A stretch of 9,988 bases of DNA. Origin: a bacterium. GTDB taxonomy: Bacteria > 4484-113 > JALSIF01. The stretch is taken from contig JALSIF010000290.1 in the NCBI GenBank assembly GCA_026981635.1, positions 1-9,988 on the forward strand, read 5' to 3'. Made by a program: the position numbers and the translations under genes. Under the pieces are notes generated by a model. The model ran no database searches and had not been told where the DNA came from. It saw nothing but the letters and a program-made list of their open reading frames with translations. This document shows positions 1,476-9,988 of the stretch, piece after piece (the stretch's first letter is position 1; each line of letters starts with the position of its first letter).

Positions 1476-3467
1476 GTGAGCCTGTCTCGTCGCCTTTGGC
1501 TGGATGCAAGCCTGGTCACCCTTTTTGTCCTGCTGATGATTCTCACCCTGCCCGCCACAAGCCTTAGGGCGTGGGGTGAGAGGGAGGGCGAGGACTACTG
1601 GCTTCCCTTCATAAGCTCCGAGGGCTACCGGGGCCACCTGGTAATCCCCAGTGCCCTGCCCACCCCCGATGGCTACTTCTTCCTCGGCCTGGGATCCAAC
1701 ACCAACCAGACCCGCTTTCAGGGCCTTAGACAAAACACCTATCTCCTAAGCCTGGGCTACCTGCCCGGCCTGGAGTTGAGTTTACGTTACACCGTATTTC
1801 CTGATACGGTTGACCCGAGTCTCGCTCCTACTTTCGGTGACATCAAGGACCGCTCACTTGCTTTCAAGTTCTCTTCTTACTACCTTCTTAAAAACAGTCA
1901 GGGTCAACCCTTGCCCATTCAACTTGCCCTCGGTGCCACCGACATCGTAGGCCGCTCCCGTCAGCAGGAAGCTCTATATGGCGTAATGGGAGCCGATTGG
2001 GGGCGCCTGCGCATTGACCTAGGAGCAGGAACTGAGCGCTTCTCCGGCCTATTCGGAGGTGCCACCTACCGCCTCAGCCGCCACCTCGCCCTCTCGGCCG
2101 ACTTTGACACCGAAGACCTGAGTCTGGGAGCCCATATCCGTCCCTCCCGCTGGCTCCAGCTCACCGCCGGCTACACCCTGGGCGAGGGCTCTGTCCTGGG
2201 GGCCTACTTCTCCGGCCCCCTCAGCCGACGGGAGAAGCTCTACCCGCTTGGGTCTCCTCCCTCTAGGGAGGGGGTGGAGATCACTTACGACTCCTTGGGG
2301 GAGAGTTGGGCAGAAAAGATCCGCGACCGCCTCCTCTCCTACGGCTTGGAGGATGTGCGCCTCACCGGCGGTGACGACTGGCTGGCGGTGGAGTTTACCG
2401 ACCGCCGCTTCCGCGACCCGCTGGTAGGTTACGGGGTGGTGCTGGTGGAGCTTGCCCGCCATGCTCCCCTCGGATACGAGAGCTTTTCTGTCACTCACCT
2501 GGTTGACCGCACTCCCCTCGCCACCCTTACCGTCCCCCGCTCTGCACTGGTTGAGTTCGTAGCAGGGAGAAAATCCCTGGCCGACTTCGCCCTCACCGTC
2601 CAGGCCGACTGGGACGGGCCCCCTTCGCACGGTGATCGTTTGGCCGGCCGATCCGGCTCAAGTCTGAGGAAGCTTGACCTGGAGCTGCTCCCCTCAGTGG
2701 ATATAAACCTTGGTCTGGAGCGGAATCCCTTTGAGAAGAGCCTGCGCCTCAGGCTGGTTGAGCAGCTTCCCCTAATGCCCCACCTCTCCCTCCAGGGTCG
2801 CCAGGGAGTGGTGCTCTCTACTGACTTTCCCGGCGAGGAAGAGGGCGACCGCCTCTACGAGCGCCTCTTTGCCCGCCTCAACTTCCGCACCCCCGGCAAC
2901 TCCCCACTTCTGCTCCAGCTTGAAGGGGGCAGGCTTTCACCCCTGGAGGAAGGGATAAGGGGTGAGCTGCGCTGGGAGACTGGGGCAGCTGGACTTCCCT
3001 TCTATTTCTCTGTGGAAGGCGCTAGGGTCAGGTGGCGCGAAGCCCGCCAGTGGGAGAACCTTCTGCTTGGTGGGGCAGGTCTCAGGGTGCCCCGCTACGA
3101 CCTGGACCTTTCCCTCCTGGGGGGCCAGTTCCTGGACGGCGACCAGGGCCTGCTAGTGAGCATGGAGAGAAGCTTCGGCCTAAACTCCATCCGCCTTTTC
3201 GCTTTCAACACCAATCAGAGCGACACCGAAGGAGGATTGGAGGTACTCCTTTCCGACCCCTTTTACAAGCGTCCTCGGCCAGAGGCCATCAGAATCATGC
3301 CTGTTGCCCTTTACCCTTATCGGGTGATAACCACCACCGATCCGGTGGGCCGGACCCTGCGCACCGGAGGAGGAATTTCCCGGCTGCTCCTGCGGGCAAC
3401 CCCTGACTACATCCTGACCCATCTTGAAGTCATCCGTGAGGTTGCTCGCTGGATGCTTTCCAACTGA
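1476..3467 (+). CDS. YjbH/GfcD-like outer-membrane beta-barrel protein
   Basis: The YjbH family (DUF940) are outer-membrane proteins linked to exopolysaccharide or capsule secretion and predicted to hold two beta-barrel portions. This protein has 663 residues, close to the roughly 700 of E. coli YjbH. Residues 1-32 form a signal peptide. The first barrel-like part (about 50-255) opens with GHLVIPSALPTPDGYFFLGL, then LGYLPGLELSLRYT and DRSLAFKF, matching the YjbH pattern 'nTPsa..pdG..r.g', 'pfpwlE.s.RYt', 'DrSfg.K'. A middle alpha/beta section (about 262-380) starts at WAEKIRDRLLSYGLEDVRL and resembles the family's soluble linker. Residues 395-663 hold a second set of alternating strands. The C-terminus (RWMLSN) lacks the usual aromatic end of barrels. 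The GTG start at 1476 is supported by GGAGG at 1464-1468 with a 7-base spacer. No glycosyltransferase or polysaccharide export gene is visible nearby, so the substrate is unknown. The family assignment rests on motif recall, not a profile search. Confidence 0.75.
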   Translation: MSLSRRLWLDASLVTLFVLLMILTLPATSLRAWGEREGEDYWLPFISSEGYRGHLVIPSALPTPDGYFFLGLGSNTNQTRFQGLRQNTYLLSLGYLPGLELSLRYTVFPDTVDPSLAPTFGDIKDRSLAFKFSSYYLLKNSQGQPLPIQLALGATDIVGRSRQQEALYGVMGADWGRLRIDLGAGTERFSGLFGGATYRLSRHLALSADFDTEDLSLGAHIRPSRWLQLTAGYTLGEGSVLGAYFSGPLSRREKLYPLGSPPSREGVEITYDSLGESWAEKIRDRLLSYGLEDVRLTGGDDWLAVEFTDRRFRDPLVGYGVVLVELARHAPLGYESFSVTHLVDRTPLATLTVPRSALVEFVAGRKSLADFALTVQADWDGPPSHGDRLAGRSGSSLRKLDLELLPSVDINLGLERNPFEKSLRLRLVEQLPLMPHLSLQGRQGVVLSTDFPGEEEGDRLYERLFARLNFRTPGNSPLLLQLEGGRLSPLEEGIRGELRWETGAAGLPFYFSVEGARVRWREARQWENLLLGGAGLRVPRYDLDLSLLGGQFLDGDQGLLVSMERSFGLNSIRLFAFNTNQSDTEGGLEVLLSDPFYKRPRPEAIRIMPVALYPYRVITTTDPVGRTLRTGGGISRLLLRATPDYILTHLEVIREVARWMLSN

Positions 3468-3487: not shown

Positions 3488-3533
3488 CCGAGGTCAAATT
3501 TGTTGGCAATTGGGTATCAATGCAGGACCTCGG
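3488..3533 (+). repeat. 8-bp inverted repeat after the YjbH-like gene
   Basis: CCGAGGTC at 3488-3495 and its exact complement GACCTCGG at 3526-3533 flank a 30-base, AT-richer loop. Two smaller pairings overlap the region: CCCAAT 3481-3486 with ATTGGG 3509-3514, and GACTA 3466-3470 with TAGTC 3477-3481. None is followed by a T-run, so this is not a standard intrinsic terminator. It may fold at the 3' end of the upstream mRNA or bind a protein. No promoter-quality -10/-35 pair was seen within it. The rest of the spacer up to 3607 shows nothing recognisable. Confidence 0.35.
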
Positions 3534-3607
3534 CCGGGGAGGGAGGGTTAGCATTGGGGCAGCGATGGAGCGTGGAACGGTGGTAATCCCTGACTGCCCC
3601 CCTTCAC

Positions 3608-3635
3608 TTGCATGGTCAACCACGCTTGCTATAAT
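3608..3635 (+). promoter_or_regulatory. sigma-70-type promoter with extended -10 for the Ig-like lipoprotein gene
   Basis: TTGCAT at 3608-3613 (-35) is followed by a 16-bp spacer and a perfect TATAAT at 3630-3635, preceded by TGC at 3627-3629, which makes an extended -10. The expected start of transcription is near 3642, giving a leader of about 50 bases with a purine-rich ribosome site. This is the best promoter in the window. Its position inside an open reading frame that could start at 3520 shows that the true gene start lies downstream. Confidence 0.75.
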
Positions 3636-3693
3636 TAGTCCTCACCAAATCCAGTCTCGGGAAATACGGGAAAAGGAGGAACGAGGTACAGTG

Positions 3694-5277
3694 GTGAGAG
3701 AGCACAAGTACATACTTGTCGCGTTGCTGTCCCTGGGGGCTTTCCTGTGGGCAGCCTGTAACGGTGGTGAGGTCCGTGGACCAGGCCCTGGCCCCGGTGG
3801 AGGAGACACCAACCCTCCAAGCTTCACAGCACTGCCATCCTGCACCGACCCGGAGGGAGACTTTGTCTTCACCTGCACAGCCACCGGTTCGGATGACAGC
3901 GGAGGTAATGTCACCTACACCTGGTCGGTTACCGCCGGCTCGCTTTCTCTGGGAAGCACCACTTCCCAGGTTGCACCTGATCAAACACTGACCGACACAA
4001 AGGCCAGCGGTACTGCCAGTACGGTTGACTGGGACCTCTCTGGTGAGGCAGACGGGACCTACACCATCTCCGTCACCCTAACTGACCAGGCGGGTAACAC
4101 CTCCGCCGCCGCAACCGCTGAAGTGACCAAGGCTGTTGTTACTAACCAGCCGCCTTCTTTGAGCGACATCACGGTGACCGACAACGGCGACGGCACCTTT
4201 GACCTGTCAGTGACCGCCACCGACCCGGACGGCGACCAGGTTACTTACGACTGGTCAGCCGATGCCGGCACACTTGCCGTGAAGACCACTTCCCAGGTGG
4301 CTGTTTCTGATGGTCCAAAGAATTCGGGTGAGGCAAGCACCGTGGTGCTCACCTGCCCGGCGGAAGGAGGGGACGTGAACGTCTCGGTAACCGCCACCGA
4401 CAGCGAGGGCAACACCAGTGACCCGGCCACCACCACGGTGAGCTGCGCTCCGGCTGCCCAGAACCGCGACCTGCCCGCCAACACCTTCAGCTTCTGGCTG
4501 CTGGACAAGAACGGCAACCCGCTGCCCACCTCCACCGGCGGCAACGACCCCGAGTACGACGTCCAGTCGGGTGAGTGCTACTGGCTGGTGGCCGCCACCG
4601 GTGAGTTCGGCACCGACATCCCGGCCAACGTGGACGCAGCCACCCTGGCCACCTACACCGGCAACAACGCCTTCGCCGACGCGGTGATTGACTTCGTCTG
4701 GGGTCCGCAGGGGGCCATCTCGCTGGTGGGTGCACCCGGCTCGGTCAACCCGGGTATGCCTGACGTACCCATCAACGCCGACTGCAATGGCCTCGACGGG
4801 AGCCAGGGTCGCTTCTCGGCCGACACCGACGACGGCATCTACGACCTTGGTTCGGCTGAGGCACTGGGCGGTTCTGCTCCACTGTTTGACGTGGCCAACG
4901 GCCTGCCGCCGCTGGACAAGGCGAGCGTGACCCGGGGCACCATTGGCGCCGACTGGTCGGTTGACTGGACCACCACCGAGGAGCTGACCAACGTGACCGA
5001 GTGGGCCTTTGGTGGTCGTCTGTCCGGCACCAGCTTTGCCACCGAGGAGGTAGTGCCCAGCGAGGATGTAGCCATCATCTCCGTGGCCATCAAGATTGAA
5101 GCCGCCTCCGGTACCACCATCAACCTGTCTTTCCTTGACTCCATCTACAGTGGTGGTGCCCGGCCCACGCTGGGTGACGGTACCCAGAACAAGGACAACT
5201 TCCTCACCTTCTACATGAACCTGGCCCAGGAGAAGATCATCCCCAACCTCCAGGACGTGACGCTCAACGTTCAGTAA
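3694..5277 (+). CDS. surface lipoprotein with two Ig-like domains and an unrecognised C-terminal module
   Basis: The product is 527 residues. Residues 1-22 are a lipoprotein signal peptide ending in the lipobox LWAAC, with Cys22 lipidated, followed by NGGE and a Gly/Pro-rich linker. Domain 1 (about 45-147) and domain 2 (about 152-251) have the look of bacterial Ig-like or cadherin-like sandwiches, each with a DP[ED]GD motif, a 'tYxWs' strand and 'lTDqaGNtS' or 'ATDseGNTS' near the end. Cys50/Cys61 and Cys221/Cys251 could form disulfides. The rest (257-527) starts NRDLPANTFSFWLLD, includes CYWLVAATGEF, and matches no family I know. GTG 3694 is chosen because GAGG at 3683-3686 is 7 bases away; the adjacent GTG 3691, with GGAGG at 3675-3679, is equally plausible and adds one Val. 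The in-frame ATG at 3520 is rejected because the promoter lies between it and the signal peptide. The gene is a paralog of the one at 8930. Adhesion or matrix scaffolding is inference. Confidence 0.88.
   Translation: MREHKYILVALLSLGAFLWAACNGGEVRGPGPGPGGGDTNPPSFTALPSCTDPEGDFVFTCTATGSDDSGGNVTYTWSVTAGSLSLGSTTSQVAPDQTLTDTKASGTASTVDWDLSGEADGTYTISVTLTDQAGNTSAAATAEVTKAVVTNQPPSLSDITVTDNGDGTFDLSVTATDPDGDQVTYDWSADAGTLAVKTTSQVAVSDGPKNSGEASTVVLTCPAEGGDVNVSVTATDSEGNTSDPATTTVSCAPAAQNRDLPANTFSFWLLDKNGNPLPTSTGGNDPEYDVQSGECYWLVAATGEFGTDIPANVDAATLATYTGNNAFADAVIDFVWGPQGAISLVGAPGSVNPGMPDVPINADCNGLDGSQGRFSADTDDGIYDLGSAEALGGSAPLFDVANGLPPLDKASVTRGTIGADWSVDWTTTEELTNVTEWAFGGRLSGTSFATEEVVPSEDVAIISVAIKIEAASGTTINLSFLDSIYSGGARPTLGDGTQNKDNFLTFYMNLAQEKIIPNLQDVTLNVQ
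4462..4710 (+). repeat. duplicated DNA segment, copy 1 (partner 9740-9988)
   Basis: This 249-base stretch aligns without gaps to 9740-9988 in the paralogous gene. By hand count 218 of 249 bases match (about 88%). The last 93 bases (4618-4710 against 9896-9988) differ at only two positions, including identity at nearly all synonymous sites. The upstream Ig-like domains of the two genes are far more diverged. The window ends inside the match, so the duplicated segment may be longer. Confidence 0.9.
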
Positions 5278-5400: not shown

Positions 5401-8400
5401 ATGAGCATTCGTAAATACCCACAACTAGTGGTAGCAGGACTGGCTCTACTCATCGCCCTGGCCCTGGTGAGCTGTAACGGTGGTGAGCAGAGGCTGGCTC
5501 AGTCCAGTGGGGTCAGTGAGACCGCCGCTGGCCCGGTTACTCCGGTGAGAGCAGGCGATGGTGAGGTAGCAATTGTTGCCTACGACCCGGAGGGTCGTCC
5601 CAGCCAGGAGCTCACCCAGCTCGTCCAGGCCGAGATGGAGGGGAAGGTCCTGAAGATCGGCCTAAAGGGTGGTGAGGGCAAGTTCATCTACCTTACGGTG
5701 GACTACAACCCTGCTAAGCTCTCTCCCACCCAGATTGAGCTGGCTGACCGTTTCGCTGAAGACGGCAACCTGCTCAAGTTCGGCAAGCGCTTCCGGGAGG
5801 GGAAGGTGGCCATTGCGGTGGCCATGATTCGTCCTTCCGAACGTGAGCCGATGGAGCTCTCGGGTGAAGTGGCGACGATCCAGTTTGGTCCCGGTCCTGA
5901 TGTAATGAAGGAGACTGCCGGTGGGATTAACCAGCCCGGTGAGCCCATGGTGGTTATAAACCCTGCTGATCCGACCAATCCTCAGGACGCGGTTGACCTG
6001 GATGCTGGCTTGGTAAGCGCCGAACTAAGGGTCAGGGGTGACACCAACGCCAACGGCTCACTAGGCTTTGAGGACATGACCCGCCTGGTCAACGTCTTCG
6101 GTCTAAGCGTTGGCGACCCGGCCCCCGGAGGTGGTACCGTCCGCATGGCTGACGACTTTGACGGCAGCGGTGACATCGGCTTCAATGATGCCACCCTCTT
6201 CGTCCAAGGCTTTGGCCTTACTGTAAGCCAAGTAAACGAGTACCAGTCACCCAACCCCGAAATAGGCATGGACGACATTGACCCGTCCAACCCCAACAAC
6301 ACCTACGCCTTGGGAGACATCAGTACCGGCCAATTGGACAGTGGCTGGGCGGGAATTGCCATACCCATACCGTCGGGTCTGACTGGGGATGTTTATGCCG
6401 CTTATCTGGCAGCTGACCCTGGCACCAACTTCCTTGACGACAACATCTCCAGTACGGTACAGCTATCTGGTGGCGCTCTCACAGTGAGCAAGTACTTTGT
6501 AACCGGCTTCACCGTCAACGTGATCGATAACATCACCGGTCAGTTGCTCACCACCATTGACTCCAACACCGGTGTCGCTGACTCCAACGTCCTTACGGCC
6601 AACATGGACATTGATTTTGTCCTCTTTGAGCTAACAGTACAGGAGCCGGACGAGAACACCCCCGACCCCAACGACTTCATCACCACTACCGTCAACATCA
6701 ACGACTGCCCCGGCTTCTCCGCCGCCTGCCTGCCCATGAGCTGGCCGGACGATTTCAAGGCTGTGGTTGACAACTTGGTTGAGGACGATCCAACCACTGA
6801 TCCACCTGGGACCCTGATCTATGAGCCGTCCGGTTCTGCCATCGCAGACATCAATGGAACCACTCCTCTTACCCGCTATGTGGGCGAGGAGGCGCTGGGT
6901 GTTGGTGCTAACACCAGCATCGTAAGTCTGCTCATCGGTCCCCACACCGGTAGCGGTGGCCAGACCATCTCGCCGCCGGCTGAGCTCAGTCTGACTGTCA
7001 CCCTACCCGGGGTGGGCGAGCCCGACCCAGTCACCGGCGTTCGTGGAGACCTGAGCGTAACTGGAAACTTCACTATCCAGCCTGATCCGAACGCCCCGGT
7101 TATTACCGCCATGACCATTGACGGACTGGACAAGAGCGACCCCGGCAACGCAGGTGCCACCACCGAGCAGGTGGACGACCTTTTGGACGTGATCATCCAG
7201 GTGGACATGGACAACTTCGATGCCGCCGCTGACCCGACCCGTAACGAGGCCGACTGCCTCAACTCGGGGGATCCTGAGTGTGGTGGCCTGGAGTCCTTTG
7301 ATGTGTGGGCATACCGCATTGATAATCCCGGTTCCGTAAGCAGTATCTCGCCTGGTGCAGAGCGGATTGACTTTGACCTGCGTGATCCGACCGATTTGAG
7401 GGTGTTTGATCCGAACATTCCGCGTGAAGATGAGGACGGCAATCCGACCCCCAATGGCTTTTATGAGCTGCCCGACACCGACGGCATCTTCCGGGTACGT
7501 TTCCCCATCCAACAGGGTGGCCAGGCCCCCAAGGTGGGCTCGTGGGTGTTGGTGGTAGCTAACAAGGTGGTGCGTAACGACCCCCTCAGGGGTACCATCT
7601 ACGCTCATCCCTCTAGTGGGCTAGTTCAGGGGCCGGACAATGACAATCTGAGTCACGATGGTCGCTTTGTGGCCCAGATATCCACCAATGTGCCCTTCAC
7701 CACCTACCCGATTGGCCCACAGTTTGGTACTTCCCCCCAGGCTGATCCGCCCCAGTTCCAGCAAGGGGAGGGGGGGCTGCTCTTCATCTACCCGCTCGAT
7801 CCGGCGGTTCGGCTCAACCCGCAGACCGACGCGGCAGGCCAGCCCGTAGACGATTTCAACTTCAACCAGCTTTTCCGCCATGACGCAAACGGTGATCCCA
7901 TCGGTGTCAGTTGGGCGGCAAGCGGTAATGCACCCATCGTGGTGGTCCAGGGACCTGGAGGCGGAGGGTTCCAGATTGAACCGGGTGTGCAGCTCAGCCT
8001 CAACAACGGTAAGTGGCGTGAGCGCTATGTCCTGGTTATCTCGGGCAGCCTTGACGTCGGAATCTGGAACTACCGCATTGGTATCCCAGTAACTGATCCT
8101 GTAAGTGGCCAGACCACCGTACCAGACGACCTGGTAGTGGTAAGCGGTCAGTTCCAGATCACCCAGTTCCCGCCCGACAACACCAGTGACCCATCCGCCG
8201 CCCAGATAACCGAGTTCGGCTTTGATGTATGGAGTCAAACCCAGCCCCACGTACCAGGTGAGCCTCGTGACCTTGCCTTTGACAACCCCAACTGGAACGA
8301 CAAGACCGGTAAGCCCCAGGGAACTAACCTGTTTGACGACCGCTACCTGATCATCCGCGGACGCAACTTCGTGCCCGCCCTGGATGAGCCTGGAGTGACT

Positions 8401-8685
8401 GACATAGATTCGGTAGGCAATGCGGCCACCGAGTTCTGGATCCAGCGCACCGACCAGCCCGCAGCTGAGTGGCAACTCAACTTCGTCCACATCATCCGCT
8501 CGGAGGATTCCTCCTCCTTTGATGCCACCGGTGTCATGACCCGCGAAGCTTACGCCCTCTCGGTGATTCCTTCAGACATCAACCTCCTGGGAGCTGACCG
8601 GAACTTCTTTGTCGGCGTCAAGGTCATTGGAGCAACGCCCAACTACCTATCTGCGCCTACCTTGACTCTCCAGCCCGGAACCTAA
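5401..8685 (+). CDS. large lipoprotein with cohesin-like region and dockerin-type calcium loops
   Basis: The product is 1094 residues. The signal peptide ends in lipobox LVSC with Cys25 lipidated, followed by NGGE as in the upstream lipoprotein. Residues about 80-165 look cohesin-like: strand FIYLTVDYNPAKLS, a variable middle, then EVATIQFG. Residues 212-275 hold two 12-residue calcium loops in dockerin style: Asp214-x-Asn216-x-Asn218-Gly ending at Asp225, and Asp252-x-Asp254-x-Ser256-Gly ending at Asp263. Each is followed by a short helix ending in FGL (MTRLVNVFGL, ATLFVQGFGL). The remaining 800 residues are rich in Asp, Asn, Pro, Gly and Thr, with beta-sandwich character, and are unrecognised; Cys436/443 and Cys619/627 are closely spaced pairs. 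The ATG start has GAGGTGA at 5388-5394 with a 6-base spacer. The gene is probably co-transcribed with the 527-residue lipoprotein gene and ends in a strong terminator. No catalytic domain is seen, so it is likely structural. The cohesin call is tentative; the dockerin-type loops are clear. Confidence 0.88.
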   Translation: MSIRKYPQLVVAGLALLIALALVSCNGGEQRLAQSSGVSETAAGPVTPVRAGDGEVAIVAYDPEGRPSQELTQLVQAEMEGKVLKIGLKGGEGKFIYLTVDYNPAKLSPTQIELADRFAEDGNLLKFGKRFREGKVAIAVAMIRPSEREPMELSGEVATIQFGPGPDVMKETAGGINQPGEPMVVINPADPTNPQDAVDLDAGLVSAELRVRGDTNANGSLGFEDMTRLVNVFGLSVGDPAPGGGTVRMADDFDGSGDIGFNDATLFVQGFGLTVSQVNEYQSPNPEIGMDDIDPSNPNNTYALGDISTGQLDSGWAGIAIPIPSGLTGDVYAAYLAADPGTNFLDDNISSTVQLSGGALTVSKYFVTGFTVNVIDNITGQLLTTIDSNTGVADSNVLTANMDIDFVLFELTVQEPDENTPDPNDFITTTVNINDCPGFSAACLPMSWPDDFKAVVDNLVEDDPTTDPPGTLIYEPSGSAIADINGTTPLTRYVGEEALGVGANTSIVSLLIGPHTGSGGQTISPPAELSLTVTLPGVGEPDPVTGVRGDLSVTGNFTIQPDPNAPVITAMTIDGLDKSDPGNAGATTEQVDDLLDVIIQVDMDNFDAAADPTRNEADCLNSGDPECGGLESFDVWAYRIDNPGSVSSISPGAERIDFDLRDPTDLRVFDPNIPREDEDGNPTPNGFYELPDTDGIFRVRFPIQQGGQAPKVGSWVLVVANKVVRNDPLRGTIYAHPSSGLVQGPDNDNLSHDGRFVAQISTNVPFTTYPIGPQFGTSPQADPPQFQQGEGGLLFIYPLDPAVRLNPQTDAAGQPVDDFNFNQLFRHDANGDPIGVSWAASGNAPIVVVQGPGGGGFQIEPGVQLSLNNGKWRERYVLVISGSLDVGIWNYRIGIPVTDPVSGQTTVPDDLVVVSGQFQITQFPPDNTSDPSAAQITEFGFDVWSQTQPHVPGEPRDLAFDNPNWNDKTGKPQGTNLFDDRYLIIRGRNFVPALDEPGVTDIDSVGNAATEFWIQRTDQPAAEWQLNFVHIIRSEDSSSFDATGVMTREAYALSVIPSDINLLGADRNFFVGVKVIGATPNYLSAPTLTLQPGT

Positions 8686-8871: not shown

Positions 8872-8901
8872 TTGGCTCATCAGCTACCCCCCTCTGATAA
8901 T
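8872..8901 (+). promoter_or_regulatory. probable promoter for the second Ig-like lipoprotein gene
   Basis: TTGGCT at 8872-8877 and GATAAT at 8896-8901 are separated by 18 bp, which predicts a start near 8908 and a leader of about 22 bases carrying the ribosome site. A second candidate is an extended -10 (TGG then GATAAT, 8864-8872) that overlaps this -35 but lacks a matching -35 of its own. The location after a strong terminator requires a promoter somewhere in 8763-8929. The stretch 8763-8863 shows nothing else recognisable. Confidence 0.5.
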
Positions 8902-8929
8902 GAAAACCGGTTATCGGGAGGGATTGGCA

Positions 8930-9988
8930 GTGAGCGGAAATCAACGCATCCTAGTTATTGTGCTTCCGTTTGCGGTTCTGTTTTTGCTCCTCTCCTGCGG
9001 TGGGAGCCGGGGAAGGCCACCCGGCGGAGTAGGGGCCGACCGCACAGCGCCCCACTTCACTCAAGTTCCCCGCTGCAGCGATCCTGAGGGGGATTTCCAG
9101 TTCGTCTGCAGCGCCACCGGTGAGGATGAGACCAGCCGCATGCTTACCTACTACTGGACGGTGACCAACGGACTGCTCGCCCTCCGCACCGACCCGCCCC
9201 CTGAAAACTGGTCAACCGAGGTGGCGGTGAGTCGTCCCAACGGCTCCCGCAGCCAGGTCCTGTGGGATCTGATACGCGAGCCCGATGGTACCTACGCCAT
9301 CATGGTGGTGATTGAGGACGAGGCAGGCAACCGCTCCCTTCCCCGCACCTTCATCGTCACCAAGACCACCCCAGAGCAGGGACAGCCTGAACCCCCTCCC
9401 TCGCCCGAGCCGGCCAACCAGCCCCCCGAGATCAAGAGCCTCTCCCTCTCCGACAACGGCGACCGCACCTTTGATCTCACCGCAGTGGCGGTCGACCCCG
9501 ACGGCGACCAGGTCACCTACAGCTGGTCAAGCAGCTCGGGTGAGCTTGCCCTCAAAAGCACCTCCCAGGTCACCCTGCAGGACGGCCCCAAACCCTCCGG
9601 TGAGCCCAGCGTGGTGCTCCTCTCCTGCACCGATGGAGGCCAGGTGGAGGCCACCGTCACCGCCACCGACGCGGCGGGAAACGCCAGTGATCCCTCCACC
9701 ATCACCCTAAACTGCCCGCCCCCTCCGCCGCCGGTGGAGAACCGCGACATTCCTCCCAACACCTTCAGCTTCTGGCTGCTGGACAAGAGCGGCAACCCCC
9801 TTCCCACCGCCACCGGGGGAGACGAGCCGGTCTATGAGGTGGAGCCTGGTGAGTGCTACTGGCTGGTGGCCGCCACCGGGGAATTCCTGCCCACCATCCC
9901 GGCCAACGTGGACGCAGCCACCCTGGCCACCTACACCGGAAGCAACGCCTTCGCCGACGCGGTGATTGACTTCGTCTGGGGTCCGCAG
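8930..9988 (+). CDS. second Ig-like surface lipoprotein, paralog of the 3694-5277 gene (cut by window edge)
   Basis: The first 353 codons are present and the frame is open to the window end. The signal peptide ends in lipobox LLSC with Cys23 lipidated. It then follows the 527-residue lipoprotein domain for domain: RCSDPEGDFQFVCSATG in Ig-like domain 1, a Pro/Glu-rich linker (PEPPPSPEP) absent from the first copy, Ig-like domain 2 with DNGDRTFDL and DPDGDQVTYSWS, then the shared module starting NRDIPPNTFSFWLLD at residue 271. From that Asn to the window edge the copies align without gaps; by analogy about 190 residues are missing. The GTG at 8930 has GGGAGGG at 8916-8922 with a 7-base spacer. 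An in-frame ATG at 8900 overlaps the -10 box and is less likely. The gene follows the strong terminator, so it is transcribed separately. The protein is probably a surface-anchored structural or binding lipoprotein; ligand unknown. Confidence 0.88.
   Translation, partial: MSGNQRILVIVLPFAVLFLLLSCGGSRGRPPGGVGADRTAPHFTQVPRCSDPEGDFQFVCSATGEDETSRMLTYYWTVTNGLLALRTDPPPENWSTEVAVSRPNGSRSQVLWDLIREPDGTYAIMVVIEDEAGNRSLPRTFIVTKTTPEQGQPEPPPSPEPANQPPEIKSLSLSDNGDRTFDLTAVAVDPDGDQVTYSWSSSSGELALKSTSQVTLQDGPKPSGEPSVVLLSCTDGGQVEATVTATDAAGNASDPSTITLNCPPPPPPVENRDIPPNTFSFWLLDKSGNPLPTATGGDEPVYEVEPGECYWLVAATGEFLPTIPANVDAATLATYTGSNAFADAVIDFVWGPQ
9740..9988 (+). repeat. duplicated DNA segment, copy 2 (partner 4462-4710)
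   Basis: This is the second copy of the segment encoding the start of the unrecognised C-terminal module. It contains identical runs of about 45 and 46 bases with the first copy, the latter reaching the window edge. The genes lie in direct orientation about 5.3 kb apart, so recombination between the copies could delete or amplify the cohesin/dockerin-like gene between them. Confidence 0.9.

Follow-up and report, generated by a model that had tools for sequence, protein, structure and literature searches.

A dockerin nested in a fibronectin type III domain of bacterial lipoproteins and a putative cohesin-dockerin docking network in phylum 4484-113

What might a lipid-anchored protein do with a cohesin-like and a dockerin-like module in one chain? 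This question is raised by P0001, a predicted 1094-residue lipoprotein encoded in a 9,988-nucleotide stretch of bacterial DNA (hereafter, the window; GenBank assembly GCA_026981635.1, contig JALSIF010000290.1, here C290). The source assembly comprises 1.75 Mb and is 85% complete. Its GTDB phylum, 4484-113, has been listed as Candidatus Niteriota (PMC11382960), and we infer that the class of ten genomes analyzed below belongs to it. Sequence and predicted fold indicate that P0001 carries a cohesin-fold domain followed by a fibronectin type III (FN3) domain whose B–C loop holds the dockerin, an arrangement that recurs in a large family of lipoproteins in this class. The original prediction, which covered positions 5638–6231 (P0001 residues 80–277), overlooked both the nesting and the family. 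The features of P0001 are as follows.

5401..8685, + strand: P0001 gene, 1094-residue lipoprotein (open reading frame; N-terminal third common to paralogues and class relatives)
5401..5478, + strand: signal peptide with lipobox LVSC and lipid-anchor Cys26, residues 1–26 (sequence)
5602..5919, + strand: cohesin-fold domain, residues 68–173 (AlphaFold2 model, structure comparison, homologue L049)
5893..6012, + strand: low-confidence linker region from cohesin to FN3 core, residues 165–204 (predicted local distance difference test, pLDDT, 53–65)
5941..6036, + strand: FN3 domain part 1, up to strand B, residues 181–212 (alignment with leptin-receptor FN3; "..LSW" in relatives)
6019..6231, + strand: dockerin nested in the FN3 B–C loop, residues 207–277 (fit to 2y3n_B and sequence match)
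6040..6075, + strand: calcium loop 1, DTNANGSLGFED, residues 214–225 (sequence; ligand positions conserved)
6154..6189, + strand: calcium loop 2, DFDGSGDIGFND, residues 252–263 (sequence; ligand positions conserved)
6229..6486, + strand: FN3 domain part 2, strand C onward, residues 277–362 (alignment with leptin-receptor FN3; diverged, pLDDT ~57–87)
6487..8682, + strand: distal part, residues 363–1094 (no relatives by BLAST, no Pfam match)

Cohesin-fold and dockerin-fold modules in one chain

We modeled residues 45–365 of P0001 with AlphaFold2 from 44 aligned sequences (mean pLDDT 82; predicted template modeling score, pTM, 0.55). The cohesin domain was predicted at a pLDDT of ~93, with extra N-terminal strands before its core from about residue 49. 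When the model was compared with solved structures by VIA-align, ranks 1–33 were all cohesin-containing entries, the best reaching Z 8.3 over 100 residues (6kgc). Together, these alignments cover model positions 24–129, corresponding to residues 68–173; the cohesin-like region originally placed at residues ~80–165 was thus borne out and proved somewhat longer. Taken alone, a Z of 8.3 is close to the warning level of the tool, and the identification is convincing because an unbroken run of one family coincides with independent sequence evidence. L049, a homologue with the same architecture, scored 26.5 bits over this domain against a Pfam Cohesin cut-off of 24.1, and P0001 matched the genome locus of L049 at E = 4e-9 over residues 80–270. 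That cut-off was passed in nine of the ten class genomes, the sole exception being the genome of P0001 itself. A profile of the cohesin family gave a single match in the PDB, CaCohA2 (itself a cohesin), which was not significant (E = 0.23), and the P0001 domain shares ~9–18% identity with solved cohesins. CaCohA2 from Clostridium acetobutylicum (6kgc, 6kg8), which also provided the best structural match, differs from the P0001 domain in being a scaffoldin cohesin and is ~11% identical to it. We therefore regard residues 68–173 as a cohesin-fold module on the strength of model and homologue, with dockerin binding as its putative role.

The original prediction also recognized a dockerin-type duplicate, which the comparisons confirmed. 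Both calcium loops, DTNANGSLGFED and DFDGSGDIGFND, are followed by a helix ending in FGL, and the helices are present in the model. An 85-residue piece of P0001 (residues 201–285) matched 2y3n_B, the dockerin of a cellulosomal glycoside hydrolase of family 48 (GH48), at E = 2e-4; a family profile of the P0001 dockerin matched the same entry at 2.9e-13; and the model superposed on it at 1.7 Å over 60 of 60 residues (30% identity, Z 5.8). In both loops, almost every one of 59 family members has an acidic residue, Asn, or Ser at calcium-ligand positions 1, 3, 5, and 12. Given these two matches and the retained ligand positions, the two-loop similarity is above chance. Conservation at loop positions 10, 11, 17, and 18 was not taken to reveal docking residues: these positions had been selected by the pattern V[GS][IV][ASQ]DITP[LIV]A used to search for the loci, which makes their conservation partly circular. 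Overall, the P0001 module is dockerin-like in sequence and has a predicted dockerin fold; a docking role is putative.

Structure prediction, one of the checks suggested with the original prediction, thus recovered both folds. Profile searches, another such check, divided: P0001 itself matched neither Cohesin (PF00963) nor Dockerin type I (PF00404), and no part of it matched Pfam, NCBIfam, or PADLOC, whereas L049 passed for cohesin and a search of the P0001 genome yielded three paralogues passing PF00404, two on contig C301 and one on C124. The translated open reading frame begins with MSIRKYPQLVVAGLALLIALALVSC-NGG, in which the lipobox LVSC-NG contains the lipid-anchor residue Cys26, and conservation of this cysteine reaches 90% or more across 50 aligned relatives. 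Profile, fold, and lipobox evidence hence agree with the earlier proposal that both modules share one lipid-anchored chain.

A dockerin inserted in the FN3 B–C loop

In relatives of P0001, "...LSW" precedes the calcium loops and "GYxIYR" follows them. On the basis of general knowledge of FN3 strands and of the excised-profile alignment described here, we take these motifs to be the end of FN3 strand B and strand C, respectively. When the dockerin was excised from 21 relatives, the profile built from the remaining sequence matched FN3 domains in the PDB (best E = 4e-5), and nearly all of its 22 PDB matches were FN3 proteins, such as fibronectin, titin, receptor phosphatase, and contactin. Single excised sequences matched Pfam fn3 weakly (0.062); nine of the ten inputs to that search were used, protein 9 being set aside because its EF loop had been entered by hand. 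The FN3–dockerin unit of a relative was predicted to fold with a pLDDT of 95–98 and a pTM of 0.79, and its best structural matches were FN3 domains aligning across both halves (Z 9.0, root mean square deviation 2.7, 100 residues). In the model of P0001 itself, the leptin-receptor FN3 aligns through the insertion (model positions 137–318, Z 5.9, root mean square deviation 3.6); this FN3 has diverged and is less certain than those of the relatives. Taken together, sequence and predicted fold place the dockerin within the B–C loop of an FN3 domain.

Known dockerins are plug modules that are either free or terminal. The P0001 dockerin departs from this habit of a free-standing, usually terminal module by being inserted in another domain. 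The dockerin 2y3n_B from Bacteroides (Pseudobacteroides) cellulosolvens shares with it the two calcium loops and the helices, yet forms the terminal module of an enzyme. The top Foldseek match was the cohesin–FN3 double module 2w1n of Clostridium perfringens GH84C, which resembles P0001 in having a cohesin and then an FN3 in one chain; unlike P0001, a lipoprotein with no recognized enzyme and a dockerin inserted in its FN3, it derives from a glycoside hydrolase. The open-licence papers searched contained no report of a dockerin placed within FN3. Cohesin, dockerin, and FN3 are each known, and we classify the FN3-nested dockerin, found phylum-wide in lipoproteins, as a new variant of non-cellulosomal cohesin–dockerin proteins.

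Expansion in one class and potential partners

P0001 had seven other matches in its own genome (on contigs C124, C301 [two], C20, C235, C83, and C294), all of them lipoproteins that share its double calcium loop; in three cases (C124, C20, and C235), the domain that precedes the loops in P0001 is present as well. Further family members were found on C99, C138, and C310, and a contig scan with P0001 as the lone query returned no relatives. Across 60 sampled genomes, taken nearest first, P0001 matched seven, all of the same class, and several of these matches span both modules, such as the one to L049.

Profiles revealed far larger numbers. The FN3–dockerin profile detected 14 copies in the P0001 genome and 27–120 in each of the other nine class genomes (593 in total), and the cohesin profile detected 6–37 per genome (205 in the ten). 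The cohesin mostly lies directly N-terminal of the FN3–dockerin, with ~30–45 bases between the profile matches in the cases compared. In a run over 385 sampled genomes that scored no more than nine candidates in each, full-length FN3–dockerin matches occurred in ten, namely the ten of the class; the other 375 gave no full-length match, and 11 of them matched the dockerin core alone (positions 9–99 of 167). Judged by these profile matches, the nested module has expanded within the phylum. A strict lipobox rule was passed by 54 of 81 class open reading frames, and the module usually lies ~40–80 residues after the cysteine. Beyond it, the proteins vary: among 50 FN3–dockerin proteins, PKD domains were present in the distal parts of ~22, followed by FN3, Ig, and propellers, and isolated enzymes included one GH5, one GH114, and one peptidase resembling clostripain. 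For the 732-residue distal part of P0001, BLAST found no relatives among its own paralogues and the class loci.

A pattern scan of named genomes, using a pattern built from five of 21 sequences, found 78 loci, nearly all from a few metagenome-assembled genomes (MAGs), including "Planctomycetales bacterium 4484_113". Four loci (L073, L104, L106, and L112) lie in genomes of Kazan, a lineage of the candidate phyla radiation, one of them labeled complete. The open reading frames of L105 and L106, which come from a MAG of the class and one of Kazan, respectively, are equal in length and score, a likeness that possibly reflects gene transfer or mis-binning. In one lipoprotein (L031:1805-3199), the order is reversed, with the FN3–dockerin followed by a cohesin-like domain that falls below the Pfam Cohesin threshold.

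The class genomes also encode potential partners, as far as domain searches can identify them. Lipoproteins consisting of a cohesin and little else are present (L121, L122, L123, and L124; L121 at a Pfam Cohesin E of 1e-4, slightly under the cut-off), and a protein on C214 of the P0001 genome has a cohesin amid low-complexity sequence. Similar lipoproteins from the P0001 genome (L029:1818-4067) and from genome G003 (L127:2-1888) each hold a single cohesin within long, low-complexity E/P-rich stretches and are candidate surface receptors. On the dockerin side, locus L020 (2410-5608) of the P0001 genome encodes two tandem subtilases that overlap at their ends and both carry a C-terminal dockerin, and a third probable protease there carries a dockerin slightly below the Pfam cut-off in a protein scan. 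Among the genomes examined, four others of the class have one such subtilase each, giving at least five with the P0001 genome. The search for other cohesin and dockerin proteins proposed with the original prediction was therefore productive in the P0001 genome itself, which holds the 14 FN3–dockerins, the C214 protein, and these subtilases; the accompanying statement that no enzyme is visible was made of the P0001 chain and holds for it. Among ten class proteins that end in a dockerin, subtilases account for four and glycoside hydrolases for none. Loop positions 9–10 are mostly acidic (V/I-D-E or similar) in the ten terminal dockerins compared and G/D then I in the nested ones, a sequence difference that suggests two recognition types. 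Omp85 was found in all ten class genomes, indicating an outer membrane and hence a diderm envelope.

Proposed function, rival readings, and genomic setting

We consider a calcium-dependent surface docking network, distinct from a cellulosome, to be the most likely function, with about an even chance of being correct. Assuming that the lipoproteins are exposed at the surface, their lipid anchors would keep cohesins and dockerins close to the membrane. The cohesin of P0001 could bind dockerins of other surface or secreted proteins, either FN3-nested ones in sister lipoproteins or C-terminal ones in subtilases, and its own nested dockerin could be bound by the cohesins of neighbors. Binding of this kind, presumably dependent on calcium, would link sister lipoproteins or recruit secreted proteases. 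The self-assembly or trans capture put forward in the original prediction is likewise putative. We favor this docking network because a cohesin fold and a dockerin fold with intact calcium loops occur in one chain; because the same genomes hold both sets of partners, 593 FN3–dockerins and 205 cohesins, as well as cohesin-only lipoproteins and subtilases with C-terminal dockerins; because in most proteins the lipid anchor lies 40–80 residues before the module; because Omp85 in the ten genomes indicates an outer membrane; and because non-cellulosomal precedents exist, such systems having been proposed in anaerobic methanotrophic (ANME) archaea (PMC9012536) and in Cloacimonadota (PMC8542988), with archaeal cohesin–dockerin pairs reported to bind (PMC9012536, PMC8542988).

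As in ANME archaea and Cloacimonadota, the modules here lie outside cellulose degradation and are distributed among various surface and secreted proteins, and the proteins bearing dockerins include subtilases. Unlike in those systems, the abundant dockerin sits inside FN3 and close to a lipid anchor, at up to 120 copies per genome, and proteins with several cohesins, present in both, were absent among the matches listed here. Non-cellulosomal cohesin and dockerin proteins were reportedly reviewed by Peer et al. in 2009. A cellulosome itself was considered and rejected: we found no glycosidase set and, among the matches listed, no multi-cohesin protein. Cellulosomal dockerins sit mainly on glycoside hydrolases, whereas the 50 FN3–dockerin proteins carry mostly PKD and FN3 domains, with the one GH5 and the one GH114. 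The class thus possesses cohesin and dockerin modules in organisms without an evident cellulosome. An FN3-nested dockerin at up to 120 copies per genome in such organisms would be a new architecture. Nested dockerins offer direct targets for studying the function of non-cellulosomal cohesins and dockerins, and they supply a specific hypothesis about how cell surfaces work in a phylum that has not been cultured; being fixed at either end, such a dockerin might also find use in protein engineering.

Several observations weigh against the docking network. Some chains with a nested dockerin have a cohesin and others do not, a pattern that is also compatible with a structural role. No open reading frame with two cohesins was found among the matches listed, in incomplete genome assemblies, and large cohesin–dockerin complexes are accordingly not evident. 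Dockerins of the nested and the terminal kind, differing near loop positions 9–10, may not share partners, and the linker between cohesin and FN3 was predicted at low confidence. A broader form of the proposal, toward which we are more skeptical than hopeful, is that a lipid-anchored, calcium-dependent network organizes the surface throughout the phylum, the FN3-nested dockerin type being read by its own cohesins, apart from the C-terminal dockerins of proteases.

Two alternatives are serious rivals to the docking network. In the first, which we consider unlikely, the role would be structural only: the dockerin would be a calcium-stabilized insert that stiffens an FN3 stalk close to the membrane, with cohesin and FN3–dockerin acting as rigid spacers that keep the distal domains off the membrane without recognizing each other. 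The dockerin is indeed fused into FN3 at both ends and the unit is predicted to fold as one body, most FN3–dockerins lack a cohesin in the same chain, and the distal parts are varied and made mostly of PKD, FN3, and other beta domains. However, a pure spacer does not explain the coexistence of cohesin-only lipoproteins and terminal-dockerin proteins, and the retention of the calcium loops in both repeats also argues against it. In the second rival, a still less probable one, the cohesin would fold back onto the nested dockerin of its own chain, yielding a compact, calcium-locked head that perhaps acts as a switch opening as calcium falls. The close spacing of the two modules in the cases compared would suit such a clasp, and the low-confidence linker of up to ~40 residues would permit the fold-back; conversely, cohesin-less copies outnumber cohesin-bearing ones, cohesin-only proteins exist, and a pTM of 0.55 lends no support to a fixed placement of cohesin against dockerin. 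Finally, jelly-roll folds are common to cohesins and carbohydrate-binding modules and the P0001 domain has low identity to solved cohesins, but the top structural ranks and the Pfam Cohesin matches across the class make it very improbable that the domain is a beta-sandwich recognizing some other ligand, whether sugar or protein, and that the dockerin is bound by something else.

The P0001 gene is flanked on both sides by paralogous lipoproteins with PKD/Ig repeats (window positions 3520–5277 and 8900–9988), which are 51% identical over 366 residues. A C-terminal region of ~250 residues in the lipoprotein at 3520–5277 recurs in the C99 lipoprotein that carries FN3–dockerin (31% identity, E = 9e-19), as well as in a fragment on C124; this region has no Pfam name. 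Further upstream, positions 1476–3467 encode a YjbH-like protein (PF06082, E = 3e-22), whose gene adjoins those for RNase HII (142–765) and a small lipoprotein (769–1413).
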